NCBI GenBank assembly: GCA_022842325.1
Contig: JALHPU010000006.1
Span: 62,001 to 126,000, forward strand
Direction: 5' to 3'
Length of the DNA stretch: 64,000 bases
From: Sulfuritalea sp.
GTDB taxonomy: Bacteria; Pseudomonadota; Gammaproteobacteria; Burkholderiales; Rhodocyclaceae
Shown: positions 15,370-47,313 of the stretch, piece after piece
How the letters are laid out: each line of letters begins with the position of its first letter
Numbering within the stretch: position 1 is the stretch's first letter
Position numbers and translations under genes: made by a program
The notes under the pieces: model-generated
Databases searched by the model: none
Seen by the model: only the letters and a program-made list of their open reading frames with translations
Told to the model about the DNA's origin: nothing

Positions 15370-15624
15370 TCAGCCTCCGGTCACCGGCGGAAAGAAGGCC
15401 ACTTCGTCACCGGACTTCACCGCGGCGTCGAGGCCGACCATCTGCTGGTTCACCGCGACGCGCAGATTCTTCGTCGTCGCCAGCGCCGTCCACGAATCGC
15501 CGCGTGCCGCGAGCTGATCGCGCAAGGCACCGACGGTAGCGACACCGGCCGGCAAGGCCAGCGACTCGGAACCCGTGCCCAGCGCCTCGCGCAGGCCGGC
15601 AAAGAAAAGCACTTTGACGTTCAT
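15370..15624 (-). CDS. moaD: Molybdopterin synthase sulfur carrier subunit MoaD
   Basis: A ubiquitin-fold protein of 84 residues with the essential C-terminal Gly-Gly (FFPPVTGG) that becomes a thiocarboxylate. The N-terminus MNVKVLFFAGLREALG and the segment VAVNQQMVGLDAAVKSGDEV are typical of the family. Length is normal. It lies between moeA (7 bases) and moaE (1 base) on the same transcript, so both molybdopterin synthase subunits are made together. Confidence 0.95.
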   Translation of the reverse strand: MNVKVLFFAGLREALGTGSESLALPAGVATVGALRDQLAARGDSWTALATTKNLRVAVNQQMVGLDAAVKSGDEVAFFPPVTGG

Positions 15625-15631
15625 GAATTAA

Positions 15632-16846
15632 CTATAGCAGCTCGGCAAACGGCAGGAAACGCACGCTGTCGCCGCGGGCAATCGCCTGCCCGGGCGGGTT
15701 GTCGATCAGTCCGTCGGCCCAGGTGCAGGAGGTCAGCACGCCCGAGCTCTGGTTGGCGAACAGTTCCAGCCCGCCGTCGGCATTGAAGCGGGCGCGCAGG
15801 AATTCGCGGCGCGGATCGCCCTTGCACTCGAAGTCGGCGCGCAGTTGCAGCGCACGCGGCCTCATGACCGAAGCACCCTGGGCCTTCAAAATGAAGGGCC
15901 GCACCAGCATGACGAAGGTGACGAAGCTCGACACCGGGTTGCCCGGCAGGCCGATGAAGGCCGCCGTGCCCTCGCCCGCCGGCCGCCGCACGCTGCCGAA
16001 CGCCAACGGCTTGCCCGGCTTGATCGCGATCTTCCACAGGTCCAGCGCGCCTTCCGCCTCGACCGCGGGCTTGACGTGATCTTCCTCGCCGACCGAGACC
16101 CCGCCGCTGGTCAGGATCAGGTCGTTGCCGGCTGCGGCGATACGCAGTGCGGCGCGCGTCGCGTCGCGCGAATCAGGCACGATGCCGAGATCGGCGACCT
16201 CGCAGCCGAGCCCTTCGAGCAGGGTGCGCAGCGTATAGCGATTCGAGTTGTAAATTCCGCCCGGCTTGAGCGGTTCGCCCGGCATCGCCAGTTCGTCGCC
16301 GGTCGAGAACAGCGCCACGCGCAGCTTGCGGAATACCGTGAGCTGCGCCGCGCCGACCGAGGCGGCGACGCCGACATGGGCCGCCGAAAGACGCGTGCCG
16401 GCCGCCAGCACCTCGGCGCCGGCGGCGATGTCCTCGCCGCGACGGCGGATCCACTCGCCGGGACGCGGCACGTGATTCACCGTCACCGCGTCGCCCTCGA
16501 GGCTGCACAACTCCTGCATCACCACGGCATCGGCGCCGTGCGGCAGCGGCGCCCCGGTGAAAATCCGCGCCGCGGTACCCGGCGCCAGCACATGGCCGAC
16601 GCTGCCGGCGGGGATGCGCTGCGCCACCACCAGGCGCGTGCCAGCCACCGGGACGTCGGCACAGCGCAGCGCATAGCCGTCCATCGAAGTGTTGTCCAGC
16701 GGCGGCACATCCAGCGTCGAGTGCAGGCCCTGTGCCAGGACCCGCCCCGCCGCCGCCTGGGTCGGCACGGCCTCGGTTTCACGCAACGGATTTGCGCCGG
16801 CCAACAGCCGCGCCAGCGCTTCTTCGAAATCGAGCATGGCGCGCAT
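15632..16846 (-). CDS. moeA: Molybdopterin molybdenumtransferase MoeA
   Basis: Inserts molybdate into adenylylated molybdopterin, the last step of Mo-cofactor assembly. The 404-residue protein begins MRAMLDFEEALARLLAGANP and carries the MoeA hallmarks PPLDNTSMDGYALR, IFTGAPLPHGADAVVMQE, VALFSTGDEL, GGIYNSNRY, TSGGVSVGEEDHVK and GLPGNPVS. The ATG at 16846 overlaps the mobB stop by one base (TGATG), which fixes the start. It supports the molybdoenzyme encoded at 26465-29131, among others. Confidence 0.96.
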   Translation of the reverse strand: MRAMLDFEEALARLLAGANPLRETEAVPTQAAAGRVLAQGLHSTLDVPPLDNTSMDGYALRCADVPVAGTRLVVAQRIPAGSVGHVLAPGTAARIFTGAPLPHGADAVVMQELCSLEGDAVTVNHVPRPGEWIRRRGEDIAAGAEVLAAGTRLSAAHVGVAASVGAAQLTVFRKLRVALFSTGDELAMPGEPLKPGGIYNSNRYTLRTLLEGLGCEVADLGIVPDSRDATRAALRIAAAGNDLILTSGGVSVGEEDHVKPAVEAEGALDLWKIAIKPGKPLAFGSVRRPAGEGTAAFIGLPGNPVSSFVTFVMLVRPFILKAQGASVMRPRALQLRADFECKGDPRREFLRARFNADGGLELFANQSSGVLTSCTWADGLIDNPPGQAIARGDSVRFLPFAELL

Positions 16847-17367
16847 CAGCGAAGCTCCATATGACGCAGAATGAAATCGGCTATCGCATCGCGATCGTTC
16901 AGATCGAGTATTGGCAAGCCGGTCGGCAACGCCGTCAGTGCGGCGACCGCAGCCGGCTCGTCGGTGGCCACGGCGACGATGGTTTCCACCCCGCTGCCGG
17001 CGATCAGTGGCTTGCCGACCGACGGCCGATGCACTTCCAGCTTCGGTATCGGCGTCTGCTTGAAGCCTTCCACCAGCACCAGGTCGCACTCGGAAAAGCG
17101 CGCGATCTGCTCGTCGAGCGAAGGTTCGGGCTCGCCGCGCAGTTCGTGCATCAGCACCCAGCGGTGGTCGGACACCAGCAGCACCTCGGAGCAGCCGGCC
17201 TCGCGCAGGCGGTAGGAATCCTTGCCCGGGTGGTCGATGTCGAAACGATGATGGGCGTGCTTGATCAGCGAAACACGCAGGCCGGCCGCCGTCAGCCGCG
17301 GGATCAAATCCTCCAGCAGCGTGGTCTTGCCGGAGCCGGAATAGCCGGCGAGGCCGAATACTTTCAT
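16846..17367 (-). CDS. mobB: Molybdopterin-guanine dinucleotide biosynthesis adapter MobB
   Basis: A 173-residue P-loop GTPase-like adapter that helps MobA form the guanine dinucleotide cofactor. The Walker A motif GYSGSGKTTL (residues 8-17) follows MKVFGLA; the family motifs LIKHAHHRFDIDHPGKDSYR and LVLVEGFK are present. The start overlaps the upstream gene by four bases (ATGA). DMSO-reductase-family enzymes such as the one at 26465-29131 use this cofactor form. No mobA is visible in the window. Confidence 0.95.
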   Translation of the reverse strand: MKVFGLAGYSGSGKTTLLEDLIPRLTAAGLRVSLIKHAHHRFDIDHPGKDSYRLREAGCSEVLLVSDHRWVLMHELRGEPEPSLDEQIARFSECDLVLVEGFKQTPIPKLEVHRPSVGKPLIAGSGVETIVAVATDEPAAVAALTALPTGLPILDLNDRDAIADFILRHMELR

Positions 17368-21662: not shown

Positions 21663-23093
21663 TTATTTCTTTAAGCTGATCACCTGTGGCTGCGTCACCG
21701 CCTTGAGCCCGTCGACGCCGAACTCGACGCCGTAGCCGGAGCCCTTGATGCCGCCGAAAGGCACCATGGGGTGGATCATGCCATGCTGATTGATCCATAC
21801 CGTGCCGGCCTGGATACGACTGGCGACCGCCCTGGCGGCCTCGATGTCGGTGGACCAGACCGAGGCGCCCAGTCCGGCGCGCAGCCGGTTGGCGCTGGCG
21901 ATGGCGTCGTCCACGTTGCTGTACTTGATGATCGGCAGCACCGGGCCGAACTGTTCCTCATCCACCAGGCGGGCGCCGTCTTTCAGGCCCGTCACCAGGG
22001 TCAGCGGATAGAAATTGCCAGGACCGCTCGCGGCCTCACCGCCGCAAACGATGGTGCCGCCTTCGCGTTTTGCGCTGTCGACCAGCGAAACCACTTTGTC
22101 GTACTGCATGCGGTTCTGGATCGGACCCATGACCATGCCCTCATCCATGCCGTTGCCCATCGGCATCGCCTGGGCGAGATCCTTCAGTGCGGCGACGGTC
22201 TCGTCGTACAGCGACTCGTGCACATACAGCCGCTTGGCGGCCGCGCAGGTCTGTCCCATGTTGATGAAGGCGCCCCAGAACAGGCCCATCGCCATGGCTT
22301 TCGGGTCGGCGCCAGGCAGGACGATGGCGGCATCGTTGCCGCCCAGTTCCATGGTGGTCGGCACCATGTTGCGCGCGGCGGCTTCGGCGATCTTCTTGCC
22401 GGTGCTGGTCGAGCCGGTGAACATGATCTTGTCGATGCCCGGATCGCCGGTCAGCCAGGAGCCTACCTCGCCCGGTCCGCTGACGGTGTTGACCACGCCC
22501 GGCGGCAACAGCTCGCCGATCACCCGCACCAGTTCAAGGGTGCCGATAGTGGTGTATTCGGAGGGTTTGATGACCACGGTATTGCCGGCGCGGATCGAGG
22601 GAATCATCTGCCAGATGGCGATCAGCAGCGGCCAGTTCCAGGGCGCGATGGCGGCCACGACGCCAAAGGGCTGGCGATGCATTTCGTCACGACGGGTGTC
22701 GTCCTCGAACACCACGTCCACCGGCAAGTCGAGGCTTGCGGGCACCTGGGTCCACACCTCGCAGCCCCAGAGCTCGAAGCGGGCACCCGGCACCTGATCG
22801 GGGCCGACGCCGCCGAGCGGCTTGCCCTGTTCGCGCGTGACCCATTCGGCGAGGTAGGGCGCGTTTTGCTTGATTGCCTCGGCGAGCTTCAACATCAAGG
22901 CTTTGCGCTCGCCATCGGGGCGAGCGGCCCAGGCGGGTTGCGCTGCGCGGGCAGCGGCAATCGCCGACTTCACTTGCGCTGCGGTGGAAATCGGGGCCAG
23001 GCCAAGAACTTCGCCGGTCGCTGGATTGAAGGATTCGAAGGTCTTCTCCGAAGCGACGGGCTGACCATTGACGAAATTCAAGTAAGTCTTCAT
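21663..23093 (-). CDS. NAD(P)-dependent aldehyde dehydrogenase
   Basis: A 476-residue class 3-fold aldehyde dehydrogenase, oxidising an aldehyde to the carboxylate in the cytoplasm. Catalytic residues are in place: N153 in APWNWP, E249 in ELGGND and C283 in NMGQTCAAAKR; the cofactor loop FTGSTSTGK is normal. Length is typical. It is a single gene between a terminator hairpin and the divergent cytochrome/molybdoenzyme cluster. The substrate is not predictable, though an aldehyde from amine oxidation (genes at 29.3-32.7 kb) is a reasonable guess from context. Confidence 0.88.
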   Translation of the reverse strand: MKTYLNFVNGQPVASEKTFESFNPATGEVLGLAPISTAAQVKSAIAAARAAQPAWAARPDGERKALMLKLAEAIKQNAPYLAEWVTREQGKPLGGVGPDQVPGARFELWGCEVWTQVPASLDLPVDVVFEDDTRRDEMHRQPFGVVAAIAPWNWPLLIAIWQMIPSIRAGNTVVIKPSEYTTIGTLELVRVIGELLPPGVVNTVSGPGEVGSWLTGDPGIDKIMFTGSTSTGKKIAEAAARNMVPTTMELGGNDAAIVLPGADPKAMAMGLFWGAFINMGQTCAAAKRLYVHESLYDETVAALKDLAQAMPMGNGMDEGMVMGPIQNRMQYDKVVSLVDSAKREGGTIVCGGEAASGPGNFYPLTLVTGLKDGARLVDEEQFGPVLPIIKYSNVDDAIASANRLRAGLGASVWSTDIEAARAVASRIQAGTVWINQHGMIHPMVPFGGIKGSGYGVEFGVDGLKAVTQPQVISLKK

Positions 23094-23306: not shown

Positions 23307-23322
23307 ATCCATCAAGATGGAT
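23307..23322. promoter_or_regulatory. Palindrome at the start of the cytochrome/idr cluster
   Basis: ATCCAT-CAAG-ATGGAT is a perfect 6-base inverted repeat that overlaps the ATG at 23321. It could be an operator or an mRNA hairpin that limits translation initiation. The rest of 23094-23306, between two divergent genes, shows no clear promoter to me. Confidence 0.35.
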
Positions 23323-23713
23323 GAAGAGGTGGCGCGTGTCCGGACTGCATGGGAACGGTACTTCGTGGCGCGGGCGCATCTGCCTGCTGCTCGCGCTTGC
23401 CGCTTTGGCTGGCGGCGCGGCGGCGGAGTCCGGCGGCCGCCTGCTGTACTACCTCAATTGCCTGGGTTGTCACCCGATGCCGGAGCAAGACCCCGGCGAT
23501 TTCGATGGCCAGGCGCGCTTCGTCGGGGCCTTCTATCAGACCGAGGCCGGCCGGCGCTTTTTTATTCGCCTGCCGGCGGCCGGTTCACCGTCCCTGAATG
23601 CCGCCGACGAGCGTCTGCTGCAGGAAGAGATATTTGCCTGGAAAGGTGCTTGCTTCGCGCTGACGGCGTCAACGCCCTTGATCAGGAACCGTCACGTCGG
23701 CGGGCGGTGGTGA
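23321..23713 (+). CDS. Small exported c-type cytochrome
   Basis: A 130-residue protein with a signal peptide (RICLLLALAALAGGAAA) and one heme-binding motif C47-L-G-C50-H51 in YYLNCLGCHPMP. The following residues (ARFVGAFYQTEAGRRFFIRL, then PSLNAADERLLQEEIFAWKG) resemble small cytochromes found beside quinoprotein dehydrogenases. No methionine occurs after residue 53, so the usual distal Met ligand is missing. Its stop overlaps the next start by one base (TGATG), so it is part of the cluster and probably passes electrons to or from the enzymes encoded downstream. Confidence 0.7.
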   Translation: MKRWRVSGLHGNGTSWRGRICLLLALAALAGGAAAESGGRLLYYLNCLGCHPMPEQDPGDFDGQARFVGAFYQTEAGRRFFIRLPAAGSPSLNAADERLLQEEIFAWKGACFALTASTPLIRNRHVGGRW

Positions 23714-25911
23714 TGCGCCGCGTGCTGCGGACTGCTCTCGTGACGGGTCTGCTCTGGCTCGGCATGGGTGCGGCCGTGGCCGCTGCGCTGGCACCGCTGC
23801 CGTCGCCGCCGAGCGTGAACCGGCCGCTGGCCGAACTGGGACGCCATCTGTTTTTCGACACCCGCCTGTCGGGCGACATGGGCCGCTCCTGCGCCAGTTG
23901 CCATATGCCAACTCAGGGGTGGGCCGACGGCAGGCCGCTTTCGCGCGCCTATCCGGGTAGCGACTACTTTCGCAATGCGCCGGGACTGATGAATGTGGCC
24001 TTGCGCCAGCGCCTGATGTGGGATGGTCGTCTTGATGGCACCGACTTGCCGACGGCGGTGCGCGACATGGTGACCGAGGCGCACTTCATGAACGCCGATG
24101 GCCGTTTGGTGCAGGAGCGGATTGTCCAGGTGCGCGAATATCGCCAGCTGTGGGACCAGGTCTGGGGCGTCGGCAGCGCGATCTACGGCCCGCAGCTGTT
24201 TGTCGCGGTCGGCGAATTCCTCAAGACGCTGAACTCGCACGGGGCGCCGATCGATGCCTATTTGCGCGGCGAAGTGCGGGCGCTGACGGCGGACGCACGC
24301 GCCGGCCTGGCCTTGTTCAGCGGCAAGGCAGGCTGCAGCCGCTGCCACGACGGCGCGCTGTTTTCCGACGGCAAGTTTCATCGCACCGGGGTGCCGGAAA
24401 ACCCGGCGGTGTGGAATGAACCCTTGCGCCTCATGACCGCGCTGCGGCACTTCGCGACCAATGGCATGCCCAACTACATGAATGCGCGCAGCGATCCCGG
24501 CGCCTATGCAATCAGCAAGGTGGAGGCGGATCGCGGGCGCTTCCTGACACCCTCGCTGCGCGAACTCGGCCACACCGCGCCGTATATGCACAACGGCGTG
24601 TTTGCCACCCTGGCCGAGGTGATCGAATTCTACGATCGCGGCGGCGGTGCCGATGGCGGGCTGCGGCCGCTGGCGCTTTCGGTAGCGGAAAAGCGCCAGC
24701 TGATCGGCTTTCTCGAGGCGCTGAGCGGCAAGCCGCCGGCAATCGCAATCCCAATCCCGTTCGAGTACCAGGTGCATGACCTGCATGCGCCGGTTGTCCC
24801 TCAAATCGCCGTATCGCCAGCGCCGACTCTTGCCGCCGCCGACGCCGCCGCGCCGGTGGCGCTGCCGCTGGCGCAGCTACCGCCGGTGCCGGTACCGGCC
24901 GACAATCCGCAGACGCCGGAAAAAGTCGAGCTCGGGCGCCTGCTTTTCTTCGATCCGCGGCTTTCCGGCGACGGCAGCACGCCGTGCTTTTCCTGTCACT
25001 TCCCGCAGCGCGGCTGGGGCGAGGGCGGCGCCAAGTCGCGCGGTTATCCGGGCACCTGGCATTGGCGCAACGCCTCGACCGTGATCAACGCGGCCCACTT
25101 CGGCAAACTCAACTGGGACGGCGCGGCGAACAGCCTCGAGCATCAGGCCGCCGGCGCGGCGGAGGGTACGGTGGCCGGCAATGGCGATCCGGCCATGATG
25201 GAAATGCGCCTGCGCCTGGTGCCCGACTATGTGGAACGCTTCCGTCGCGTCTTCGGCCTGCAATGGCCGCGCATGACGCAGGCCTATCAGGCACTCGCGG
25301 CGTTCCAGCGCAGCATCGTCAGCGATTCGCGCCAGGTGCCGCTGGATCGCCATCTCGCCGGCGATGAACAAGCGCTGAGCGCGGAGGCCCGGCGCGGTTA
25401 TCAGCTGTTCGCCGGCAAGGCCGGCTGCCAGCGCTGCCACAACGGCGCGCTAGTCTCGGATCAGCGCTTTCACGCCACCGGCGTGCCGGAGCCGCGCGGC
25501 GAAGGCATGACGCCCTTGCTGCGCATCACGCATCGCTGGCAAAACTACCAGCGCGGCGTGCCCGAGTCGAGCTTCCGCCATAGCGATGCCGATCTCGGCC
25601 TCTACTACGTCACCAAGCGGGTCGAGGACATCGGCAAGTTTCGCACCCCGTCCTTGCGCGAATTGCGCTACACGGCGCCCTATATGCACAACGGCGCCTT
25701 TGCGAGCCTGCGCGAAGTGGTGGATTTCTATGATCGCGGCGGCGGCGTCGCCGCCAACAAGCCGGCCTGGCTGCGGCCCCTGGGCCTGAGCGAGGCCGAG
25801 AAGCGCGACCTGGTCGTATTTCTTGACGCCATGAGCATGGACCAGCCCCTGCTCGTCGCCGTGCCCGCGCTGCCGAACTATTCCATGCCGAAAGGAGCGA
25901 CCAAACCATGA
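23713..25911 (+). CDS. Double di-heme cytochrome c peroxidase / MauG-like protein (fused IdrP1-IdrP2 type)
   Basis: A 732-residue periplasmic protein with signal peptide and two complete bacterial cytochrome c peroxidase modules in tandem. Module 1 (about 35-340) has hemes at C60/C63/H64 and C208/C211/H212 and the motif TPSLRELGHTAPYMHNG ending at 295. Module 2 (about 400-715) has C425/C428/H429, C572/C575/H576 and the same motif ending at 661. A Pro/Ala-rich linker (about 350-400) joins them and contains a dispersed repeat. Iodate reductase clusters encode two separate peroxidases (IdrP1, IdrP2), proposed to remove H2O2; here they are one chain. MauG, which finishes the TTQ cofactor of methylamine dehydrogenase, is in the same superfamily. 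It overlaps idrB by four bases. Confidence 0.82.
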   Translation: MRRVLRTALVTGLLWLGMGAAVAAALAPLPSPPSVNRPLAELGRHLFFDTRLSGDMGRSCASCHMPTQGWADGRPLSRAYPGSDYFRNAPGLMNVALRQRLMWDGRLDGTDLPTAVRDMVTEAHFMNADGRLVQERIVQVREYRQLWDQVWGVGSAIYGPQLFVAVGEFLKTLNSHGAPIDAYLRGEVRALTADARAGLALFSGKAGCSRCHDGALFSDGKFHRTGVPENPAVWNEPLRLMTALRHFATNGMPNYMNARSDPGAYAISKVEADRGRFLTPSLRELGHTAPYMHNGVFATLAEVIEFYDRGGGADGGLRPLALSVAEKRQLIGFLEALSGKPPAIAIPIPFEYQVHDLHAPVVPQIAVSPAPTLAAADAAAPVALPLAQLPPVPVPADNPQTPEKVELGRLLFFDPRLSGDGSTPCFSCHFPQRGWGEGGAKSRGYPGTWHWRNASTVINAAHFGKLNWDGAANSLEHQAAGAAEGTVAGNGDPAMMEMRLRLVPDYVERFRRVFGLQWPRMTQAYQALAAFQRSIVSDSRQVPLDRHLAGDEQALSAEARRGYQLFAGKAGCQRCHNGALVSDQRFHATGVPEPRGEGMTPLLRITHRWQNYQRGVPESSFRHSDADLGLYYVTKRVEDIGKFRTPSLRELRYTAPYMHNGAFASLREVVDFYDRGGGVAANKPAWLRPLGLSEAEKRDLVVFLDAMSMDQPLLVAVPALPNYSMPKGATKP
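24807..24832. repeat. Dispersed short repeat in the linker of the double peroxidase
   Basis: CGCCGTATCGCCAGCGCCGA followed by CTCTTG, a full copy. It lies in the linker between the two peroxidase modules and encodes AVSPAPTL, in frame. Confidence 0.75.
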
Positions 25912-26468
25912 GCGCCGAACCGATCCAGGGCCGAGGCTGCTCCTGCAGCGGCGGTGCCGGAATCAGCCGCCGCGACTTCCTGTTTGCCGGCGCACTGGCG
26001 CTGAGCTCGATTCCGCTCGCGGCGCTGGGCGCGGCCGCAGGGTTCGCGCCGGGAACCGTACTGCTGAAAGCGGCCTACGCCCGGCAACGCATTGCCAGCT
26101 TGTCGCAACTCGTCACAGGCATGCCGCTCTACTTCGACTATCCGCGCCCGGACCTGCCTAACCTGCTGGTCAAGCTCGGCACGGCGGCGGGTGGCGGACT
26201 GGGTGCGCAGCGCGACATCGTGGCCTTCAATCTGCGCTGTACGCACATGGGCGGCGATCTGTCGCGCGCCTTTCAGCCCGCGCAACAGGTGCTCGGGCCT
26301 TGCCCGCGCCATCTCACCAGCTTCGATCTGACGCGGCACGGGCTGGTGATCACCGGCAGCGCCACGGAAAGCCTGCCGCAGATCGAACTCGAACTCGATG
26401 GCGACACGATCTACGCGGTCGGCGTGATGGGGCTGGCCTACGGCGAGACAGGCACGGGGTCCGCATGA
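25908..26468 (+). CDS. idrB: Rieske iron-sulfur subunit, arsenite oxidase/iodate reductase family (IdrB-like)
   Basis: A 186-residue periplasmic [2Fe-2S] protein that would pass electrons to or from the molybdenum subunit. A twin-arginine signal is present (SRRDFLFAGALALSS, residues 20-34). The Rieske ligands are C111-T-H113 and C132-P-R-H135. The two extra cysteines that form a disulfide in some family members are Gly116 and Arg134 here. Two cysteines (C11, C13) precede the Tat motif. Start and stop overlap both neighbours in ATGA, so three genes are translated as one unit. Confidence 0.85.
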   Translation: MSAEPIQGRGCSCSGGAGISRRDFLFAGALALSSIPLAALGAAAGFAPGTVLLKAAYARQRIASLSQLVTGMPLYFDYPRPDLPNLLVKLGTAAGGGLGAQRDIVAFNLRCTHMGGDLSRAFQPAQQVLGPCPRHLTSFDLTRHGLVITGSATESLPQIELELDGDTIYAVGVMGLAYGETGTGSA

Positions 26469-29131
26469 GCGCACCACCGCTACCCCCGCGCGGCGCGGAT
26501 GTGCTGACGACGGCCTGCGACTATTGCGCCGTGGGCTGCGGCTACAAGGTGTACCGCTGGCCGGTCGATGCCGGCGGTGATCGCGGCAGCCCCGGAGCCG
26601 GAGAAAATGCGCTGGGCGTGGCGTTTCCGCATGATGGCGGCACTCACGGTTCGCTGCCCTGGGTTTCCTCGAGCCAGCACAACATCGTGCGCCACCAGGG
26701 GCGGCCGCACCACGTCGTCGTCATCGCCGATGCCGATACCCGCGTCGTCAATCCGCGCGGCAACCATTCGATGCGCGGCGGCACCCTGGCGCAGAAATGC
26801 TACAACCCGGACAACCGTACGCGCGAGCGCCTGACCACGCCGCTGCTGCGGGTCAACGGCACGCTGGTACCGGTGTCCTGGGATCTGGCGCTGGATGCGA
26901 TGGCCGATATTTCGGCCTACGTGCTGGCGAAATACGGCGAGCATGCCTGGGCCGTCAAGAGCAATTCCTACCAGTATTTCGAGAACACCTATGCCATCAC
27001 CAAACTGGCGCTGACCAGCGTCGGCACGCCGGCCTTCGCGCCGCACGACAAGTGTTCCAACACCAACGACGCCACCGGGCTGGACGACGCCGGGATCGAT
27101 TCCTTCTCGGCGTCGTTCGAGGACTGGGGCATGTGCGACACCCTGTTCATGTCCGGCGTCGATCCCTTCGAAACCAAGACCACCTTGTTCACCAGCTGGA
27201 TCATGGCTGGCGACAATCCGAAGAAGAAGCTGATCTTCGTCACGCCGCACAAGACCATGGGCGTGGCCTGGGGCATCAAGCAAGGCGGGCTGTGGCTGCC
27301 CATCATCCCCGGCACCGACACGATTCTGCACAACGCCCTGGCGCGCATCATCATCGAGCGCGGCTGGCAGGATCAGGAGTTCATCGACCGCTGGATCGCC
27401 AGCCGCTGGGAAACCGATTCCGGCTATGGTCGCGGCACGCGCAATACCGGCTGGCAGTGGCGCACCACCTGGGGCACCTGGCAAAGCGACTGGCCGGATT
27501 TCCGCAAGTTCATTCTCGGCCGCGACGAGCACCGGATCGAGAACGCGGCGCGCATCACCGGGCTTAGGGCCGAGGACATCGTGCGCTGCGCGGAACTGAT
27601 CGCCCGGCCGAATGCCGATGGCTCCCGAACCAAGACCTCGTTCATGCTCGAGAAGGGCAACTACTGGTCGAACAACTACATGAATACGGCGTCGCTGGCC
27701 GCGCTGGGGCTCATTTGTGGCGCCGGCAATCGTCCGGGGCGCGTGATTTCGCGCGGCGGCGGCCACCAGCGCGGCATGGTGAATGCCGGTGGCGCTTCGG
27801 GCTGGCTCAGTCCGGAGAAATATCCGGGCCGGCGCAAGAAAAGCCTGAATCTGGATCGCTGGCTGCAGGACGGACAGCTGCGCTTCGCCTGGGTCTTCGG
27901 CACCACCTGGATCGCAGCGATGACCGGTTCGCTGGAATTGCAGAAGGCCATCGAGCGGCAGACCAGCGCCAGTCCGCATCGGCCGCAGCGCGCCGAACGC
28001 AGCGCCATCGTCGCCGCCTGGCGCGCCCGCGTTGATGCCGGCGGCATGGTGCTGGTGGATTCCGACATCTACCCGGTGGAGCCGCTGGGAAGCCGCTTCG
28101 CCGATGTCGTGCTGCCTGCGGCGACCTGGGGCGAAGCGGATTTCACGCGCTGCAATTCCGAGCGCCGGCTGCGGCTGTATGCGCAGTTCTACGATCCGCC
28201 CGGGGACGCCAAACCCGACTGGTGGGCGGTGCAGCAGTTCGCCCGCCGCATGGGGTTTAGCGGCTACGAGTGGAAGAACCCGAACGACGTGTTCGAGGAG
28301 GCGGCGCGCTTCAGTCGCGGCGGCGTGCTGGATTATTTCCCGCTTGTCAGCCAGGCGCGGCAGCAGCGCGAACCGGCCCACGAGCTGTTGCGGCGCATGG
28401 GCACTACCGGCATCCAGACCCCGATCCGCATCGCCGACGGCGAACTGGTCGGAACCAAGCGCCTGCACGATCCGGACAACGACGCCGGTTTGATCGAGGG
28501 GCCGGAGGCGCGGCGCAGTTTTCTCAACGCCTTCAACACGCACACCGGCAAGGCGCTGCTGCTCAAATCGCCCTGGGATTTCCCCGGCTGGATCGAGTTT
28601 TACCGCGCCATCTCGCCGCGCCCGGAGAAAGGCGAAATCTGGGTCACCAACGGCCGGGTCGGCGATACCTGGCAATCCGGCTTCGACGACAGCCGCAAAC
28701 CCTACACGGCGGCGCGCGGTCCGCATCCCTGGCTGTTCGTGCATCCCGACGACGTGGCGGGGCAGAAGATCGAAAGCGGTGATCGCGTGCGCGTGGTGAA
28801 CGACACCGTGTACACCCAGACCGGGATGCCGCAAGGCGTGCTGGAGTCAGATCTCGGTTTCGATAGCCTGCTGGCGGGCGGCCATATCAAGGTGAGCGAG
28901 GGATGGTTCGAGGCCATCGCGATCGTCAGCGCAGACATCCGACCCGGCGTGGCCAAGGCCAATTTCAATTTTCCCGGCGCGCCGGCCAACGCGGTGTGCC
29001 ACGCCGTGCCCGACCCGGTGACCAACAACTACCGCTACAAGCTGGGCCGCGGCAGGCTGCTGCGCCTGGGCGAATCTGCCTTGAAGCAAGGATTTGCGGG
29101 CGGTTCGCTTAAGCCGCCTGGCCTGATCTGA
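26465..29131 (+). CDS. idrA: Molybdopterin oxidoreductase of the AioA/IdrA family, probable iodate reductase large subunit
   Basis: An 888-residue molybdenum enzyme of the DMSO reductase superfamily, arsenite-oxidase branch. The [3Fe-4S] ligands are C18-xx-C21-xxx-C25 in ACDYCAVGCGYKVY, with Ser102 (GNHSMRGG) replacing the fourth Cys, as in AioA. R430 and H434 (RGGGH) match two residues of the AioA active site. The stretch matching AioA His195 and Glu203 (NTNDATGLDDAGID, residues 199-212) has neither residue, which argues against arsenite as substrate. With the Rieske gene and peroxidase modules upstream, dissimilatory iodate reductase fits best. It has no signal peptide of its own and would be exported with IdrB by Tat. 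Confidence 0.78.
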   Translation: MSAPPLPPRGADVLTTACDYCAVGCGYKVYRWPVDAGGDRGSPGAGENALGVAFPHDGGTHGSLPWVSSSQHNIVRHQGRPHHVVVIADADTRVVNPRGNHSMRGGTLAQKCYNPDNRTRERLTTPLLRVNGTLVPVSWDLALDAMADISAYVLAKYGEHAWAVKSNSYQYFENTYAITKLALTSVGTPAFAPHDKCSNTNDATGLDDAGIDSFSASFEDWGMCDTLFMSGVDPFETKTTLFTSWIMAGDNPKKKLIFVTPHKTMGVAWGIKQGGLWLPIIPGTDTILHNALARIIIERGWQDQEFIDRWIASRWETDSGYGRGTRNTGWQWRTTWGTWQSDWPDFRKFILGRDEHRIENAARITGLRAEDIVRCAELIARPNADGSRTKTSFMLEKGNYWSNNYMNTASLAALGLICGAGNRPGRVISRGGGHQRGMVNAGGASGWLSPEKYPGRRKKSLNLDRWLQDGQLRFAWVFGTTWIAAMTGSLELQKAIERQTSASPHRPQRAERSAIVAAWRARVDAGGMVLVDSDIYPVEPLGSRFADVVLPAATWGEADFTRCNSERRLRLYAQFYDPPGDAKPDWWAVQQFARRMGFSGYEWKNPNDVFEEAARFSRGGVLDYFPLVSQARQQREPAHELLRRMGTTGIQTPIRIADGELVGTKRLHDPDNDAGLIEGPEARRSFLNAFNTHTGKALLLKSPWDFPGWIEFYRAISPRPEKGEIWVTNGRVGDTWQSGFDDSRKPYTAARGPHPWLFVHPDDVAGQKIESGDRVRVVNDTVYTQTGMPQGVLESDLGFDSLLAGGHIKVSEGWFEAIAIVSADIRPGVAKANFNFPGAPANAVCHAVPDPVTNNYRYKLGRGRLLRLGESALKQGFAGGSLKPPGLI

Positions 29132-29217: not shown

Positions 29218-29299
29218 AAAACCTAGTATCGATGCGGACACGAAGCAACGCGGATTGGCCGTCCGTCCGGGCGATTTTTCAGAATTGAGGAGTGTGACC

Positions 29300-30466
29300 A
29301 TGCCACCAAGGTCATTGGTTGCGATTGGGCTGGGCAGTATTTTTATCTGCGCCGCGGCGTTCGCCGGCAAGACTCCGGAGTTGCCGGTGGATCGCATCAC
29401 GGTTTCGAATTTGCGACCGGCAACCCCCTACCGGGTGTATCTCAACGACGCGGCGTTTCCGCACATCATCGACAGCAAGCTGCTCATCATCGACGGCGCC
29501 AGCCTCAAGCTGGAGGGCATGCTGGGCACGGCCTACGTCGCCCATACCGCGCTCTCGCCCGATCGCTCGGAGATCTACGCATCGACGACTTATTACGCGC
29601 GCCTGAACCGTGGCGAGCGCTTCGATCAAATTGACGTCTATGACGCCATCACCCTCAAGCTCAAGGCGGAGATCCCGCTGCCCGGAAAGCGCGCGCTGGC
29701 GCTGGCCTACAAGGGCCTGATTCGCAGCTCCGCCAACGGACGCTTCATCTTCGTGCAGAACGCCACGCCGGCAACCTCGGTCAGCGTGGTTGACCGCCAG
29801 GCCGGCAAGTTCGTCACCGAAGTGCCGACCCCCGGCTGCTGGGCGATCTACACGCCCGCCACGGTGTCGGATCGCTTCTCCTCGCTGTGCGGCGACGGCA
29901 CCATGCTCACCGTGATGCTCGACGAAAAGGGCAACGCCGTGGGGCGCAAGAAGAGTGCGCCATTCTTCGATCCCGACGACGATGCGCTGTTCATTTCGGG
30001 CGAGCAGTCCGGCGACCGCTTCTACTTCGCCTCGTTCAAGGGCCGTGTGCAGCCGGTCGACATCGGCGGCGATGTGGCAATGCCGGCGCCGGCCTGGCCG
30101 CTGGTGCCGGTAACGAGCAAGAAGAGCAGCTGGCGGCCGGGAGGCTACCAACTCATGGCGCTGCATGAAAAGAGCGGAACGCTGTTCGTCGGCATGCACA
30201 GGAAAGGCGGCGAAGGCAGCCACAAGAGTCCCGCCGACGAAATCTGGACCTTCGACCTCGCCACCGGCAAGCGCATTGCGCGCACCCCGGCACCGGGCAC
30301 CACGACGATGGCCGTGACCCAGGGCGACGCAGCGCGTTTGCTCGCCTTCGACGGCACCAAGGGCATGTTGAACGCCTTCCATGCAGCACCGAACAAAGGT
30401 CGCCTGGAGTTCATCGCCAGTGGCGGCCCGTTCGGTGAGACCCCAACCATGCTGGACACGCAGTAA
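29300..30466 (+). CDS. mauB: TTQ amine dehydrogenase large (heavy) subunit
   Basis: The periplasmic large subunit of a methylamine- or aromatic-amine-dehydrogenase. It has 388 residues, a signal peptide (LVAIGLGSIFICAAAFAGK) and the repeated beta-propeller strands of the family (SVVDRQAGKFVTEVPTPGCW, FYFASFKGRVQPVDIGGD, IWTFDLATGKRIARTPAPG). The ATG at 29300 has GAGGAG seven bases upstream. It binds the TTQ-containing light subunit and helps form the substrate channel. Methylamine and aromatic-amine types cannot be separated reliably by eye; aauB is the alternative name. The stop overlaps mauE by one base. Confidence 0.88.
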   Translation: MPPRSLVAIGLGSIFICAAAFAGKTPELPVDRITVSNLRPATPYRVYLNDAAFPHIIDSKLLIIDGASLKLEGMLGTAYVAHTALSPDRSEIYASTTYYARLNRGERFDQIDVYDAITLKLKAEIPLPGKRALALAYKGLIRSSANGRFIFVQNATPATSVSVVDRQAGKFVTEVPTPGCWAIYTPATVSDRFSSLCGDGTMLTVMLDEKGNAVGRKKSAPFFDPDDDALFISGEQSGDRFYFASFKGRVQPVDIGGDVAMPAPAWPLVPVTSKKSSWRPGGYQLMALHEKSGTLFVGMHRKGGEGSHKSPADEIWTFDLATGKRIARTPAPGTTTMAVTQGDAARLLAFDGTKGMLNAFHAAPNKGRLEFIASGGPFGETPTMLDTQ

Positions 30467-31026
30467 TGCCGCCCTTCATGAATGCCGATCCCGTACTGTC
30501 CCATGCCATGGGAGCGGCTCTGTCCGTGGTGTTCCTGACCGGTGCCTGGCAGAAGCTCAAGGAACATGAAGAGTTTGTCGCGGTGCTCGAAAACTATCGA
30601 TTGCTGCCTGCCGCGACACTGAATTCAATGGCCTGGCTGCTGCCGCTGGCCGAGGCGCTGGCCGGAGTGCTGCTGCTGATCGAGGCCACCCGACTGCCCG
30701 CGACCCTGCTGGCATTTGCCTTGATGTTGCTGGTGACGGCAGGGGTAGCCATCAACCTTTTGCGTGGCTATTCGGAAATCGATTGCGGCTGCGGCGGCTT
30801 TTCCGGCGGAGTGAGCGGCCAGGCAATCTCGTGGAGCCTCGTGGTGCGCAATCTGGTTTTGATCGCCGCAATTCCCTGGATCGCCGCCGACTCCGCGGCG
30901 CGCAATCTGGTCTGGATCGATTATCTGACAGTTGCCTGCACCACTCTGGCCTTGCTCGGCCTGTATGCCCTGGTCAGTCAGTTGCTGGCCACGCAACCGC
31001 GCCTTGGCGCCTTGAGGAATTCCTGA
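30466..31026 (+). CDS. mauE: MauE-type membrane protein for TTQ dehydrogenase maturation
   Basis: A 186-residue inner-membrane protein with four to five helices, of the MauE / DoxX-like family. It carries the conserved cysteine motif DCGCGG (C107, C109) on a loop. MauE and MauD are both required for correct folding and disulfide formation in the small subunit, in the periplasm. Gene order B-E-D-A is the same as in known mau and aau operons. Confidence 0.9.
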   Translation: MPPFMNADPVLSHAMGAALSVVFLTGAWQKLKEHEEFVAVLENYRLLPAATLNSMAWLLPLAEALAGVLLLIEATRLPATLLAFALMLLVTAGVAINLLRGYSEIDCGCGGFSGGVSGQAISWSLVVRNLVLIAAIPWIAADSAARNLVWIDYLTVACTTLALLGLYALVSQLLATQPRLGALRNS

Positions 31027-31658: not shown

Positions 31659-32195
31659 GTGAAATGGTTCGACAGTTTCTTCGAACAGAAGACCCGTATG
31701 GCGGCCCGGTCGATTTCGCGTCGCAGTGCCTTGGCGCGGCTCGGCCGCATCATGATCGGAACGGCGCTGGTCTTGCCGATACTGCCGTTCGATCGTGTGG
31801 CGAAAGAGGTTCACGCCGCAAAAAAACCCGCCGACAAGCGCAATGACGACACGGCCTGCGAGTATTGGCGCTACTGCGCGCTCGACGGCTGGCTGTGCAC
31901 CTGCTGCGGCGGCACGATTTCGAGCTGCCCGCCAGGAACCGAAGTATCGAAAGTCACCTGGGTCGGCACTTGCCACAACCCGAACGACAGTCGGGACTAT
32001 CTGATCAGCTACAACGACTGCTGCGGGGCGACCAGTTGTGGGCGCTGCCTGTGCAATGGCAACGAAGGCGAACGGCCCGGCTATCGCATGGGCGTGCATA
32101 ACGACGTCAATTGGTGCATGGCCAACAGCAACAACAGTTATCACTGCACGGTCGCGGCGGTGGTCGGAACCGCCGAGTCGCCTCGGGCTCGGTGA
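31659..32195 (+). CDS. mauA: TTQ amine dehydrogenase light (small) subunit
   Basis: The catalytic subunit of 178 residues, started at GTG 31659, which has GGAGGGGG eight bases upstream. A Tat-like leader (SISRRSALARLGRIMIG) precedes the mature part. Trp101 and Trp152 are 51 residues apart, exactly the spacing of the two tryptophans (57 and 108 in Paracoccus) joined to form tryptophan tryptophylquinone. Asp120 matches the catalytic base and Asp76 the second conserved Asp. Fourteen cysteines provide the dense disulfide network. MauG-type activity is needed for TTQ in methylamine dehydrogenases; the only such protein here is the double peroxidase at 23713-25911. Confidence 0.95.
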   Translation: MKWFDSFFEQKTRMAARSISRRSALARLGRIMIGTALVLPILPFDRVAKEVHAAKKPADKRNDDTACEYWRYCALDGWLCTCCGGTISSCPPGTEVSKVTWVGTCHNPNDSRDYLISYNDCCGATSCGRCLCNGNEGERPGYRMGVHNDVNWCMANSNNSYHCTVAAVVGTAESPRAR

Positions 32196-38641: not shown

Positions 38642-39607
38642 ATGAATTCCAGACTTCTGCTTGCATTTAGCTTCCTGCTCGGCCTGCCGCTTGCTGTGCC
38701 TGCCGCAGCGCCAGGCGCTGCATTGACCACGCAAGCGGCTGTCGCCAGTTCGTATGCGGGCAAGGCGCCCGTGCTTGCCGCCGCTCGCGCCGGCAAGCGC
38801 GTCGTCTCGGTCGGCGACTATGGCACGGTGATGATCTCCGATGGCGGCGCGTTTCGCCAGGCGCGCGAAGTACCGGTGAATACCACGCTGACCGCGGTGA
38901 CTTTTGTCGACGAAAAGTTCGGCTGGGCGGTCGGCCATTGGGGCGCGATCCTGCACACCGAGGACGGCGGCGAGACCTGGACCCGGCAGCGCCTCGACAC
39001 AACGACGGATCGGCCCCTGTTCTCGGTGCATTTCATCGATCGCAACAACGGCGTTGCCGTCGGGCTCTGGTCGCTGTTGCTGACAACGCAGGACGGCGGC
39101 AAGAACTGGAACAGCGTGAGCCTGCCAAAGCCGCCCGACGGCGGCAGGGGCGACCGGAATCTGTTCAAGGTGTTCGGTAACCGGGGGGATGTTCTCTACA
39201 TCGCCGCCGAGCGCGGTACCGTACTGCGCTCCGCAGACCGCGGAGCGACCTGGACTTATCTGGATACGGGCTACAAGGGCTCATTGTGGACCGGCCTGGT
39301 GCTGCATGACGGCAGCCTGATAGTGGCCGGATTGCGCGGAACCGCATACCGCAGTAGTGATGGCGGAAAGTCCTGGAGCCAGGCGACCACCAATACCAAG
39401 AGTTCCATCACCGATCTGGTGGAGGCGGGGCTCACGCTGTGGGGCGTAGGGCTCGACGGCGTGACGCTGACCAGCACCGACGGCGGTATCAGTTTCGTTG
39501 CCAGGCAACGGGACGACAGGCTTGCACTTACGGCAGCGGCGGTCGCCGGCGATGGTTCGGTACTGACCTTCTCCAAGCGCGGATTGGTGGCTACCGAAGC
39601 GCGCTAG
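38642..39607 (+). CDS. Exported YCF48/BNR-repeat beta-propeller protein
   Basis: A 321-residue exported protein (signal LLLAFSFLLGLPLAVPAAA) made of repeated propeller blades with BNR-type Asp boxes: HTEDGGETW, TTQDGGKNW, RSADRGATW, RSSDGGKSW and TSTDGGISF. It resembles the YCF48/HCF136 family, whose plant members assist photosystem II assembly; bacterial ones accompany RND transporters as here. It starts nine bases after the transporter stop and is cotranscribed. Role: probably a periplasmic partner of the pump, by association only. Confidence 0.85.
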   Translation: MNSRLLLAFSFLLGLPLAVPAAAPGAALTTQAAVASSYAGKAPVLAAARAGKRVVSVGDYGTVMISDGGAFRQAREVPVNTTLTAVTFVDEKFGWAVGHWGAILHTEDGGETWTRQRLDTTTDRPLFSVHFIDRNNGVAVGLWSLLLTTQDGGKNWNSVSLPKPPDGGRGDRNLFKVFGNRGDVLYIAAERGTVLRSADRGATWTYLDTGYKGSLWTGLVLHDGSLIVAGLRGTAYRSSDGGKSWSQATTNTKSSITDLVEAGLTLWGVGLDGVTLTSTDGGISFVARQRDDRLALTAAAVAGDGSVLTFSKRGLVATEAR

Positions 39608-39663: not shown

Positions 39664-40788
39664 CTAATCGATCGCTGCCAGCGCCTCCTCGGCTGGCACA
39701 TAGGGATGGCCGAGTTCCCGGGCCACGGCTTCGCAGGTAACGTTGCCGCCGCAGACGTTGAGTCCGTTGCGCAGATTGCCATCGCACACCATGGCCTGCC
39801 TGATGCCCTGGTTGGCGATCGTAAGGGCATGTTCCAGCGTAGCATTGGTCAGCGCCTGGGTCGATGTCCGGGCAACGCCGCCGGGCATGTTGGCGACGCA
39901 ATAGTGGATCACGCCATCGACCACATAGGTCGGCTCCTGGTGGGTGGTTGCATGCGATGTTTCGGCGCATCCGCCCTGATCGATCGCGACATCGACCAGC
40001 ACCGATCCCGGCTTCATCAAGCTGATCATTTCCCGCGTGACCAACTTCGGTGCCGCAGCCCCGGGAATCAACACCGCACCGATCACTGCGTCGGCACTGC
40101 GCATTTCGTCCTCGATGGCGTCATGAGTCGAGAACAGCGTCCGAATCCGCCCGCCGAAGTCGTTGTCGATCTCCCGCAGGCGCGCCAGCGAACGATCGAG
40201 GATGGTCACTTGCGCCCCCAGTCCCAGTGCCATGCGTGCAGCATGGATGCCGACCACGCCGCCGCCGATGACCGTCACATGGGCCGGGGCCACACCGGGA
40301 ACTCCACCCAGCAGTACCCCCGAACCGCCGGACGAAATTTCCAGCGCCTTGGCCGCGGCCTGGATCGACATGCGTCCGGCCACCTCGGACATCGGCGCCA
40401 GCAGCGGCAGTCCACCGCGCCCGTCGGTCACGGTTTCATAGGCGACGCAAATCGCCCCGCTGTCGATCAGGCCCTGCGTCTGCAGCGGGTCCGGTGCCAG
40501 ATGGAGGTAGGTGTAGAGAATTTGCCCGCGGCGCAACTGTCGGTATTCGACCGGCTGCGGCTCCTTGACCTTGATGATCATGTCGCAGCCGGCAAATATT
40601 TCCGCTGCCGTAGCGGCGATCTGCGCCCCGGCCGCGACATACTGCTCGGCGGTGAAACCGATGGCCTTGCCGGCATCGCCCTGCACCGTGACCTGATGTC
40701 CCCAGCGCACCAGCTCCCGGGCCCCCGCCGGGGTAAGCCCGACGCGGTATTCGTGAATCTTGATTTCCTTGGGCACCCCGATATGCAT
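39664..40788 (-). CDS. ald: Alanine dehydrogenase
   Basis: A 374-residue enzyme converting L-alanine and NAD+ to pyruvate, ammonia and NADH. The start [20 protein letters not shown] is the family N-terminus. K75 and H96 correspond to the pyruvate-binding Lys and His, and the NAD fold is marked by [20 protein letters not shown]. Start at 40788, preceded by GGGGGAAGG. In this cluster it likely regenerates pyruvate from the alanine produced by the aminotransferase at 42391-43758. Confidence 0.95.
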
Positions 40789-40880
40789 TGCAACCTTCCC
40801 CCGATCAACTCTCATGGCTTCGCTACGCCAACATGCATCTTGAAATCTCGCACCTTCGATGGGCCCCGAGCAGGTAAATA

Positions 40881-40911
40881 GGCCCGCCCCTCCCATCCTC
40901 CCCTCGCGGGG
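40881..40911. repeat. 31-base repeat, copy 2
   Basis: Identical over 31 bases to 36118-36148, same orientation, with continuing similarity to about 40940. It lies between the permease and alanine dehydrogenase genes, 4.7 kb from the first copy. Confidence 0.85.
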
Positions 40912-40978
40912 AGGCTACTGATCGGCTCGCTGCGCTCGTACCTGACACGGAGCGCTTGGTGAGGTATTTCACTTCAAC

Positions 40979-42367
40979 TCAATGATGCTTCGGCATCTCG
41001 CCGACCAAGGCCGGATTGGCCTCGAACAGGCCCTTGTTCATGAATAGCTTGACCCAAAGTGCGCCGATCACGACGATCAGCGCCAGCACCGTTCCCAGTG
41101 AGGTGAATATCGGTGCGACCAGTTCCGGTGCCGGCGCGCTGTTGGCGACCACGTAGCCGAGGCCGAGAATGGCGACAACCTGCGGCAGCGGGAACAGGGG
41201 CACGCGATACGGCCGCGGCGCATCGGGCATGCGCAGCCGCAAAACAATCAGGGCGAGGTGGGCAATCATGTAGGAGATCAGCCATGCACTCGCTGCGGCG
41301 ACGATCAGCGGCAGGATCTTGCCGACATCACCGCCTGACCATGCCACCCCGACCAGCGGCAGGCAGGCGACGAACAGCAGGGCCACCCAGGGCGTGTGGT
41401 AGCGGGCGCTCAGCCGCTTGAACACCGGAAATACCTGGCCGCTCATCGCCATGCCGTGCAGCATTTGCGGCAAGGCCCCGAGCACTGTGTTGACCAGGCT
41501 GGCGGTGGCGGTGATCGCGATGGCACCGAATACCAGCTTGGCTACCGGACCGAACACGGCGACGACATACTCGAGGTGCGGCGTGGCGGCGGTCGTCAAA
41601 GTTTCGCGGGACAGCAACAGACCCGCGCCGATGCAGAACAAGGCGTTGGCGATGGTCACCACCGTCAGGCCGATGAACATCGCGCGCGGGATGTCGCGTG
41701 CCGGATTCTCGGCGTCTTCCGCCAGGGGTGTAACGAATTCGGTGCCGATCAGGGAGTACAGCACCAGCGATACCACGCCGATCACCGTGACGTTTTCGGC
41801 CATAGCGGCCAGGCCGGTGCCGCTGGCCACGGCGGCCCCCGCATGGAAGCCGCCGGTGGCGGCGACGATGCCGGTCAAGGCGAGAAAAACCAGCATCGCG
41901 ACGGTGAGCAGGGTTTGCGTGCGCGCGAACACGTCGGTGCCTAGGTAGTTCAGGACTACCAGGACGGCGAGCAGCAATACCGCCCAGCCCATGGTCGGCA
42001 TCAACCCCGGCAGGAGTTGCGTCATTACGCTATCGACCAGCATTAGTTCGGCCGCCTGGCCGAACAGCGCCGGCACGACGTAGCCGGCAAATACGGCGAA
42101 GATGGCCGGAAAGTGTCCCAGCGAAGCCTCGCAATACGCGGAGAGGCCGCCGTGGCGGGGCATCATCAAGGCCAGTTCGGCGAAGGTGGCGGAGTTGCAC
42201 AGCATCAGCACGTAGGCGATGGCCATGGCGCCGAGAAATCCCCAGCCGGCGATTCCGGCGGCCTGGAGCAGCGAAACGATGGTGCTCTGGCCGACGATGA
42301 CGCCGATCGCGATGCAAAACAGCGAGAAGAATCCTATGCCTTTCTTCATGCCCGGCGGCTTGTCCAT
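40979..42367 (-). CDS. APC-family amino acid/amine permease
   Basis: A 462-residue inner-membrane transporter with about 12 helices. The first helix carries the APC pattern FSLFCIAIGVIVGQSTIVSL, and EFVTPLAEDAENPARDIPRA is the typical loop after helix 6. It is an amino acid or polyamine/organic-amine importer by family. It lies 23 bases after the aminotransferase gene in the same run, so it most likely imports the substrate of that pathway. Confidence 0.87.
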   Translation of the reverse strand: MDKPPGMKKGIGFFSLFCIAIGVIVGQSTIVSLLQAAGIAGWGFLGAMAIAYVLMLCNSATFAELALMMPRHGGLSAYCEASLGHFPAIFAVFAGYVVPALFGQAAELMLVDSVMTQLLPGLMPTMGWAVLLLAVLVVLNYLGTDVFARTQTLLTVAMLVFLALTGIVAATGGFHAGAAVASGTGLAAMAENVTVIGVVSLVLYSLIGTEFVTPLAEDAENPARDIPRAMFIGLTVVTIANALFCIGAGLLLSRETLTTAATPHLEYVVAVFGPVAKLVFGAIAITATASLVNTVLGALPQMLHGMAMSGQVFPVFKRLSARYHTPWVALLFVACLPLVGVAWSGGDVGKILPLIVAAASAWLISYMIAHLALIVLRLRMPDAPRPYRVPLFPLPQVVAILGLGYVVANSAPAPELVAPIFTSLGTVLALIVVIGALWVKLFMNKGLFEANPALVGEMPKHH

Positions 42368-42390
42368 GTCCCCTCCTTTTGCGGTCGGGA

Positions 42391-47297: not shown

Positions 47298-47313
47298 ATT
47301 GACTGTTCCTCAT

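Follow-up and report, generated by a model that had tools for sequence, protein, structure and literature searches.

What kind of system is encoded by a compact run of four genes in the genome of Sulfuritalea sp. (GCA_022842325.1), in which a small cytochrome c, a tetraheme chain, a Rieske protein and a large molybdoenzyme precede the genes of a tryptophan tryptophylquinone (TTQ)-type amine dehydrogenase? The window analysed here is a stretch of 64,000 nucleotides (contig JALHPU010000006.1, positions 62,001 to 126,000 of the forward strand), to which all coordinates of the locus refer. By its sequence, the locus comprises an IdrA-clade subunit, its Rieske partner, a four-haem IdrP chain and a small cytochrome c, with an adjoining TTQ operon. 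We propose, tentatively and at somewhat short of an even chance, that it is an Idr-type periplasmic molybdoenzyme operon of a distinct betaproteobacterial lineage, which might have been recruited as an electron outlet for amine oxidation. The four idr-like genes are:

23321..23713, + strand: small mono-haem c-type cytochrome of 130 residues with one CxxCH; first gene of the operon, with homologues aligned in eight clade loci
23713..25911, + strand: fused IdrP2-IdrP1 tetraheme chain of 732 residues; two PF03150 matches, halves assigned by the module tree
25908..26468, + strand: IdrB-type Rieske subunit; TIGR02694 at 99.3 bits (cut-off 95.65)
26465..29131, + strand: IdrA-type molybdopterin catalytic subunit of 888 residues with a CxxCxxxC iron-sulphur motif; TIGR02693 at 391 bits (cut-off 359.05)

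An earlier, sequence-only reading of this DNA had given the same order and coordinates (cytochrome c, double peroxidase, Rieske and molybdoenzyme at 23321-29131), and these stand. The genes look like a single transcript because their junctions overlap by 1, 4 and 4 bases; gene starts, and hence all intergenic gaps given here, come from a simple gene caller. The small cytochrome c has no Pfam or NCBIfam match and is, across the loci compared, a marker gene of the ten-member clade described below. The Rieske protein carries a twin-arginine leader (SRRDFLFAG) and the ligand motifs CTHMG...CPRH, both recognized by eye. A promoter scan returned 0 sites versus 0.8 expected by chance and a terminator scan 8 versus 4.6, while Rfam and tRNA scans of the window gave no matches.

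The identity of the molybdoenzyme was examined using 84 loci: the best 80 of 477 relatives from a scan whose query alignment was headed by the window protein, the window itself, and three further loci (L007, L135 and L136). In a tree of these 84 IdrA-type rows and three AioA rows (87 in total), the window falls in a ten-row clade (SH-aLRT 100) inside the betaproteobacterial IdrA, with the IdrA of Denitromonas iodatirespirans in the neighbouring canonical group and the three AioA as the outgroup (branch support 100). Nine of the ten clade rows are recovered at 100/100 in a concatenated tree of 32 of 33 chosen loci (L074 was dropped, as its N module was not assigned by rule). Arsenite oxidase AioAB belongs to the same superfamily, and the window proteins pass both NCBIfam arsenite-oxidase models; however, the window lies outside the AioA clade, has di-haem partners and is without the HNRPAYNSE segment of the three AioA rows compared, while the RxGGH segment, with its R and H, is retained. 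We take the His of the HNRPAYNSE region and the RxGGH segment to be arsenite-site residues of AioA. We rejected an AioA identity on the strength of the tree and of the absent arsenite-site segment; the same two lines bear out the iodate-reductase-type assignment of the sequence-only reading, as the molybdoenzyme is placed within the IdrA clade and not with AioA.

The published order of idr genes is idrP2-P1-B-A (text of PMC10989891), following which we name the N-terminal half of the fused chain IdrP2 and the C-terminal half IdrP1. When set against the canonical clusters (Denitromonas iodatirespirans IR-12, L074; an Azonexus plasmid, L135; and L007), the window locus has the four orthologous components in the same order, with a Tat leader on the Rieske protein and none on IdrA (by eye in the window) and an IdrA identity of 66-67%. 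It differs from them in its fused peroxidases, in the extra small cytochrome c in front, in its position beside aau genes in an amine island and in its membership of the separate ten-member clade. One of these canonical clusters comes from the same genome: G000:C3:203000-222900 (L007 5472-10985, - strand) encodes an IdrA 67% identical to that of the window, an IdrB and, from separate genes 12 bases apart, di-haem proteins of 362 and 378 residues. Given this second cluster, the window locus is, by its gene content, a paralogue of the canonical idr set with the two peroxidase genes present as one. The sequence-only reading was right about the type of cluster; it did not mention this second copy, and the genome's canonical idr set lies on contig C3. 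Judging from translations, the neighbours of L007 look like an RND-type efflux pump together with a sensor kinase and a sigma-54-type regulator; genes of the last two types are also annotated beside the Azonexus plasmid cluster.

Among the nine other clade genomes, seven have a single IdrA match, one has two partial matches on two contigs, and L095 has a canonical copy in addition. Elsewhere, L086 (Roseovarius azorensis) shows two IdrA-type matches within one 22-kb stretch, and G095 has such matches on two contigs (C1 and C6), one of them cut at the contig end. In L104, the contig that holds the idr-type cluster bears the label of a euryarchaeal metagenome-assembled genome (MAG), which true transfer or mis-binning could explain.

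The first ATG of the downstream operon lies about 170 bases beyond the molybdoenzyme gene. The genes on either side of the four are:

21663..23093, - strand: aldehyde dehydrogenase of 476 residues; PF00171 at 464 bits, divergent neighbour of the operon
29300..30466, + strand: amine dehydrogenase heavy chain, aauB-like; PF06433 at 137.5 bits (run on 29255-30466)
30466..31026, + strand: MauE/AauE-like membrane protein; PF07291 at 95.6 bits
31028..31621, + strand: MauD/AauD-like thioredoxin-fold accessory protein; TIGR02661 at 211.6 bits (cut-off 188.6)
31659..32195, + strand: TTQ-type amine dehydrogenase light chain, aauA-like; PF02975 at 179.2 bits
32195..32662, + strand: mono-haem cytochrome c of the aau operon; PF00034 at 43.6 bits
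32733..34124, + strand: DUF1329 protein of the aau operon; PF07044 at 428 bits
34147..36015, + strand: DUF1302 protein of the aau operon; PF06980 at 443 bits
36362..38632, + strand: MMPL-type transporter; PF03176, also beside aau in several other genomes
38642..39607, + strand: YCF48/BNR repeat protein; PF14870, also beside aau in several other genomes

Among solved structures, 2i0r, an aromatic amine dehydrogenase, is nearest to the light chain (E 6e-52) and methylamine dehydrogenase chains rank behind it; the light chain's score against the methylamine-type model TIGR02659 (178.6 bits) is below the cut-off of 196.85. The Trp residues of its WVGTCHNP and DVNWCMAN motifs align with 2i0r and are presumably the TTQ-forming pair.

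This neighbourhood recurs within the clade. Nine of its ten members (the window, L096, L077, L103, L129, L101, L080, L084 and L055) carry the idr-like genes on a contig with aau genes: the two sets directly adjoin in the window and L096, an AraC-type regulator gene sits between idrA and aauB in L077, L103 and L129, the aau genes are just upstream of the idr-like genes in L101, and the distance is about 12 kb in L080 and L084 and about 20 kb in L055. By comparison, AauA or AauB was found in none of the fetched flanks of the 71 other idr loci (flanks of 19 kb or more were available for 34 of these). A genome-level search, covering 42 of the 80 scan loci in 41 genomes (nine of the clade and 32 others, the latter including the non-betaproteobacterial fused loci L099, L117 and L127), found aauA in eight of the nine; with the window genome, which also has it, this gives 9 of 10 clade genomes versus 6 of 32 other idr genomes (Fisher p = 9e-5). 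These patterns have to be weighed against the possibility that the locus is a plain Idr paralogue, a second iodate reductase that came to lie beside aau by history, such as a shared horizontal transfer, and has no tie to amines. The retention of nearly all conserved IdrA positions would fit such a paralogue, as would published accounts: the text of PMC8692401 describes idr clusters as mobile islands in which idrABP1P2 is kept in all idrA-clade neighbourhoods while the surroundings are poorly conserved. However, the aau linkage is held in nine of ten clade members despite differing gene orders, it is absent from the flanks of the other idr loci, and seven of the nine other clade genomes show a single IdrA match. 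We consider the plain paralogue unlikely, though a serious contender.

The linkage extends to further catabolic genes. Window positions 39664-47297 hold an alanine dehydrogenase followed by look-alikes of a permease, a class-III aminotransferase, a HAD-like protein, a UPF0261 protein and an aldehyde dehydrogenase, and 47531-48514 an AraC-type gene; except for the alanine dehydrogenase, the set at 39664-48514 was judged from translations and comparison. A similar set stands beside the idr-like genes in L055, where permease, HAD-like (by eye), UPF0261, aminotransferase and aldehyde dehydrogenase genes fill the interval between idr and aau, and most of it recurs in L101. Relatives 82% identical to the window aldehyde dehydrogenase adjoin the idr-like genes in L080 and L084, and lie about 9 kb away in L101. 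The window operon is, going by gene content and linkage, built into an aromatic-amine catabolic island. The Idr type given by the sequence-only reading, which passed over the aau operon, stands, and the context is not that of a stand-alone iodate island. Separately, genes for a ThiS/MoaD-like protein, moeA and mobB (molybdenum-cofactor synthesis) are found at 15370-17364, about 6 kb before the operon.

Such surroundings raise the question of whether the substrate itself has changed, from iodate to a compound of amine catabolism, with the enzyme reducing an N-oxide or oxidised amine, or oxidising or hydroxylating its substrate, and the haem chain serving as a carrier. The shared island with its aldehyde dehydrogenase, aminotransferase, permease and AraC-type regulator genes speaks for this, and so do the longer branch and the haem-ligand change (see below) of the split members, i.e. 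those clade members in which the two peroxidases are separate genes. The IdrA sequences point the other way: the window retains 218 of 223 positions conserved in canonical IdrA, and just one fixed difference, W752 to G, sets the clade apart from the 74 other rows (thresholds of 90% for the clade and 95% for the other rows). Mismatches at conserved sites amount to 1-2% in the fused and 5-6% in the split rows, inside the canonical range (mean 1.1%, maximum 14%; two truncated canonical rows excluded from the comparison), and there is no structural sign of a changed pocket. A new substrate is accordingly an improbable explanation.

The most distinctive part of the operon is its tetraheme chain. 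The 732-residue product of 23713-25911 has exactly four CxxCH motifs and two CCP_MauG stretches (PF03150), laid out as a leader, an N module (~24-345), a Pro/Ala-rich linker (~346-386) and a C module (~387-726); by eye, the only hydrophobic leader is the one at the N terminus, and the second module begins without one. Chance matching is not an issue, since the chain hits di-haem family models at E 1e-72 and 6e-116. Its best NCBIfam model is TIGR03791 TTQ_mauG (386.7 bits, below the cut-off of 443.85), and the MbnH-family model scores 353.8 bits (below 362.85). Two modules were readable in 63 of the 84 loci, one in 8 and none in 13, with many loci at contig ends. A tree built from 134 Idr modules of 71 loci, with seven reference di-haem proteins, parts the seven fused chains into their halves: all N halves group in one IdrP clade (support 99) and all C halves in the second (98), which indicates that the window chain carries both IdrP1- and IdrP2-type di-haem modules in one polypeptide. 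An AlphaFold2 model of it (predicted local distance difference test score 85.3, predicted template modelling score 0.83) places the C module close to both CcP (Z 35.3, root-mean-square deviation 2.0 over 301 residues) and MauG (Z 31.6, 1.9 over 292 residues).

Canonical peroxidase genes are often only about 10 bases apart, such that a single error could join them, and the linker is poorly conserved; hence a stop codon lost in assembly, or a decaying gene, has to be considered. An assembly slip is unlikely because the fused gene recurs, with 93% identity at the amino-acid level, in a separate Sulfuritalea MAG (L096). The chains of L055 and L095, both betaproteobacterial MAGs, are also fused (68% and 65% identity to the window chain), and fusions arose independently in L099 and in L117/L127. 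Differences between the window and L096 are mostly at third codon positions (37 of 62 in one module and 46 of 64 in the other), the linker differs by a 6-base in-frame indel, and the second module has no leader of its own. Within the linker, 9 of 12 changed codons are non-synonymous and another frame is open too, which argues against a proof of coding from the linker alone. With separate assemblies contradicting it, we rejected the artefact as barely credible. The sequence-only reading of a single 732-residue chain with four CxxCH motifs and one signal peptide, in which two peroxidases are truly fused, is thus upheld: the halves fall in two IdrP clades, L096 is fused too and, as far as sequence allows, no stop separates the modules.

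The search for further tandem chains in idr loci, also suggested by the sequence-only reading, recovered fused chains in 7 of the 63 loci with two readable modules: the window, L096, L055 and L095 (betaproteobacteria), L099 (Rokubacteria), and L117 and L127 (Planctomycetes). As these occupy three separate places in the module tree, the IdrP fusion has, on the phylogeny, recurred. The fusion of the Rokubacteria MAG (L099 7192-9378) is independent, and in the related L105 the two modules lie in separate frames; the planctomycete chains (L117 6797-9385 and L127 2899-5469) are pentaheme fusions, with an added N-terminal mono-haem cytochrome domain before the IdrP modules. A single fusion uniting the four fused betaproteobacterial rows in one clade was rejected (approximately unbiased test, p 0.012, with unlike composition in several rows as a caveat), and the history of the betaproteobacterial clade is either one fusion followed by a split or two fusions. 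In the five measurable split members the two peroxidase genes overlap by 4 bases, a configuration seen elsewhere only in L091 and L108 among the other measured loci, in which the two genes are most often separated by about 10 bases; the pattern agrees with a later split and is no proof of it.

Among 399 genomes sampled from the order, six matched the chain at E 1e-80, with a stop-free full-length match in the window genome and G327 only (the contig places of G327 fit the L095 genome, G587). The class sample added 13 positive genomes, none of them with such a match. Elsewhere in the family, eight genomes with an IdrA-type gene were compared: the peroxidase genes are separate in six and were unreadable at contig ends in two. 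Searches of plasmids with the fused chain and IdrA found no record with at least 60% identity to the fused chain, and the two idr-type plasmid loci opened (L135 from Azonexus and L136 from Vibrio) have separate genes. The idr-type cluster itself is known. A fused IdrP architecture, which the sequence-only reading had called new, is not mentioned in the text of PMC8692401, PMC10989891, PMC10149662, PMC11445184 or PMC10746228 (figures and supplements being outside the scope), and we found no earlier description of it in the literature searched. The same search, with few subscription papers in scope, found no report of a tetraheme MauG-type fusion or of an Idr-amine link, and the text of four of these five idr papers, searched for the purpose, likewise yielded no mention of an amine or amine dehydrogenase.

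What might the two haem modules do? IdrP1 and IdrP2 have been proposed to reduce H2O2 (texts of PMC10149662 and PMC8692401). At the position of the Met ligand in three CcP-like references, Idr modules have Tyr in 62 of 65 N-type and 64 of 69 C-type cases (126 of 134), as do the MauG- and MbnH-like references at their C-haem ligand position; we take the aligned Tyr to be the C-haem ligand of MauG. The window chain has this Tyr in both modules. All exceptions (His in three N-type and Phe in five C-type modules) are split members of the window's clade, in which the C-module Tyr has become Phe in 5 of 5 and the N-module Tyr His in 3 of 5. The inter-haem Trp is retained in 63 of 65 N-type and 68 of 69 C-type modules. 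In a comparison that tests position and not activity, the distal Pro and Glu are at their CcP/MauG places in none of the 65 N-type and none of the 69 C-type modules, even allowing ±1 alignment column, whereas the distal Gln is retained in 2 of 65 and 68 of 69, respectively. The structure alignment comprised 55 chains out of 70 (that of the window and 54 from the 69 locus chains); most rows of the VIA alignments span residues 384-726.

The modules thus share the fold of bacterial di-haem CcP (CcpA/MacA; Z 35) and differ from it in having Tyr rather than Met, no distal Pro/Glu and a Gln in the C-type module only. With MauG/MbnH they have the fold, the inter-haem Trp and the Tyr at the C-haem ligand position in common, the window chain being unlike these in its four haems, its displaced or absent distal Pro/Glu and its molybdoenzyme partner. 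The IdrP family hence looks MauG-like rather than CcP-like, and the fused chain is probably not a classical CcP. As the distal Pro and Glu are missing from their places in 134 of 134 modules, the published H2O2-reduction role appears doubtful, with no CcP-type site behind it. This also undercuts the suggestion of the sequence-only reading that the fusion holds the H2O2-removal steps together, which rests on a peroxidase role for modules that lack the distal Pro/Glu in 65 of 65 and 69 of 69 cases, and Gln in 63 of 65 of the N-type.

A MauG-like chain beside a TTQ enzyme invites another explanation, namely that it makes the TTQ of the amine dehydrogenase, while IdrAB supplies or removes an oxidant. 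The chain's best NCBIfam match is indeed TTQ_mauG, both modules have the MauG-type Tyr and the TTQ substrate is encoded next door. Moreover, the aau operon does not seem to encode the maturase of its amine dehydrogenase: a mauG-like gene turned up in none of the 20 aau-type regions read (L170-L189, out of 31 listed places, one of them the window's own), several of which are shorter than 20 kb, with L171 stopping just before the IdrP genes of the L080 genome, and of which at least L188 and L189 look nearer to methylamine dehydrogenase by identity. However, TIGR03791 stays below its cut-off even though two modules add up, the MauG distal Pro and Glu are not at their places, the split members beside aau have lost the C-module Tyr in all five cases and 26 of 32 other idr genomes are without aauA. 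Other aau genomes also manage without idr-like genes: aau operons elsewhere in the order share the aauB-E-D-A order, and several have the cytochrome, DUF1329, DUF1302, MMPL and YCF48-like genes, but 19 of the 20 regions read are without idr-like genes. In the 19 of 22 aau-type genomes covered by a search for the CcP/MauG family, 18 have a match somewhere, some of those in the window genome and G279 being the IdrP chains themselves. Together, these points make a maturase role quite improbable. In G400, which is 99% complete, there is an aau-type light chain (C12:461608-462138, 53% identity) and no MauG-family match at E 1e-10.

Returning to the electron-outlet reading, the parts list, gene order, phylogeny and linkage are direct observations, from which we infer all of the electron-transfer steps and the substrate. 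The amine dehydrogenase would oxidise aromatic amines in the periplasm and hand the electrons over to small c-type cytochromes, from which, or from the bc1 pool, they would reach the tetraheme chain and IdrB, and then IdrA, which would reduce iodate or a chemically similar oxidant. The fused chain could serve as a unit for electron delivery and for handling reactive intermediates (HIO/H2O2), with the fusion fixing a 1:1 pairing of its two haem modules, whose counterparts in published strains occur with IdrA in active bands, while iodate respiration proper would fall to the canonical idr set on contig C3. The fusion fits the Idr complex suggested in the text of PMC10149662 on the grounds that several Idr proteins are reported to occur together in active bands.

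Several observations weigh against this reading. The canonical set makes redundancy possible, and most aau operons are without idr-like genes (among the 20 regions read in the order, that of the L080 genome alone has them), so amine oxidation does not need the idr module. L095, the first branch of the clade, is fused and has no aauA match in its genome; therefore, fusion and amine linkage are separable. The Tyr-ligand change in the split members suggests that function may drift within the clade. Counts drawn from the best 80 of 477 relatives are not population frequencies, and the IdrA and concatenated trees flag unlike composition in several clade rows. As for the distal site, 63 of 65 N-type and 28 of 69 C-type modules have a Glu 2-5 columns earlier that could take its place, and two MbnH-like references themselves show a one-column shift of the Glu.

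A broader claim is also conceivable, though we regard it as doubtful: that one entire branch of 'iodate reductases', instead of being a free-standing system of iodate respiration, is a dedicated periplasmic electron outlet or oxidant module of TTQ amine oxidation with welded haem partners, and that the Idr 'peroxidases' are generally MauG-like proteins without a CcP distal site, so that the H2O2-detoxification role would be wrong. The role of IdrP is itself called unclear in the text of two published idr papers, and with the distal residues missing, the H2O2 hypothesis lends itself to a direct test. The fusion is natural evidence that the two IdrP proteins act as one unit. If a distinct amine-linked Idr branch does exist, either some calls of iodate reduction would be wrong, or iodate reduction would have a new electron donor.

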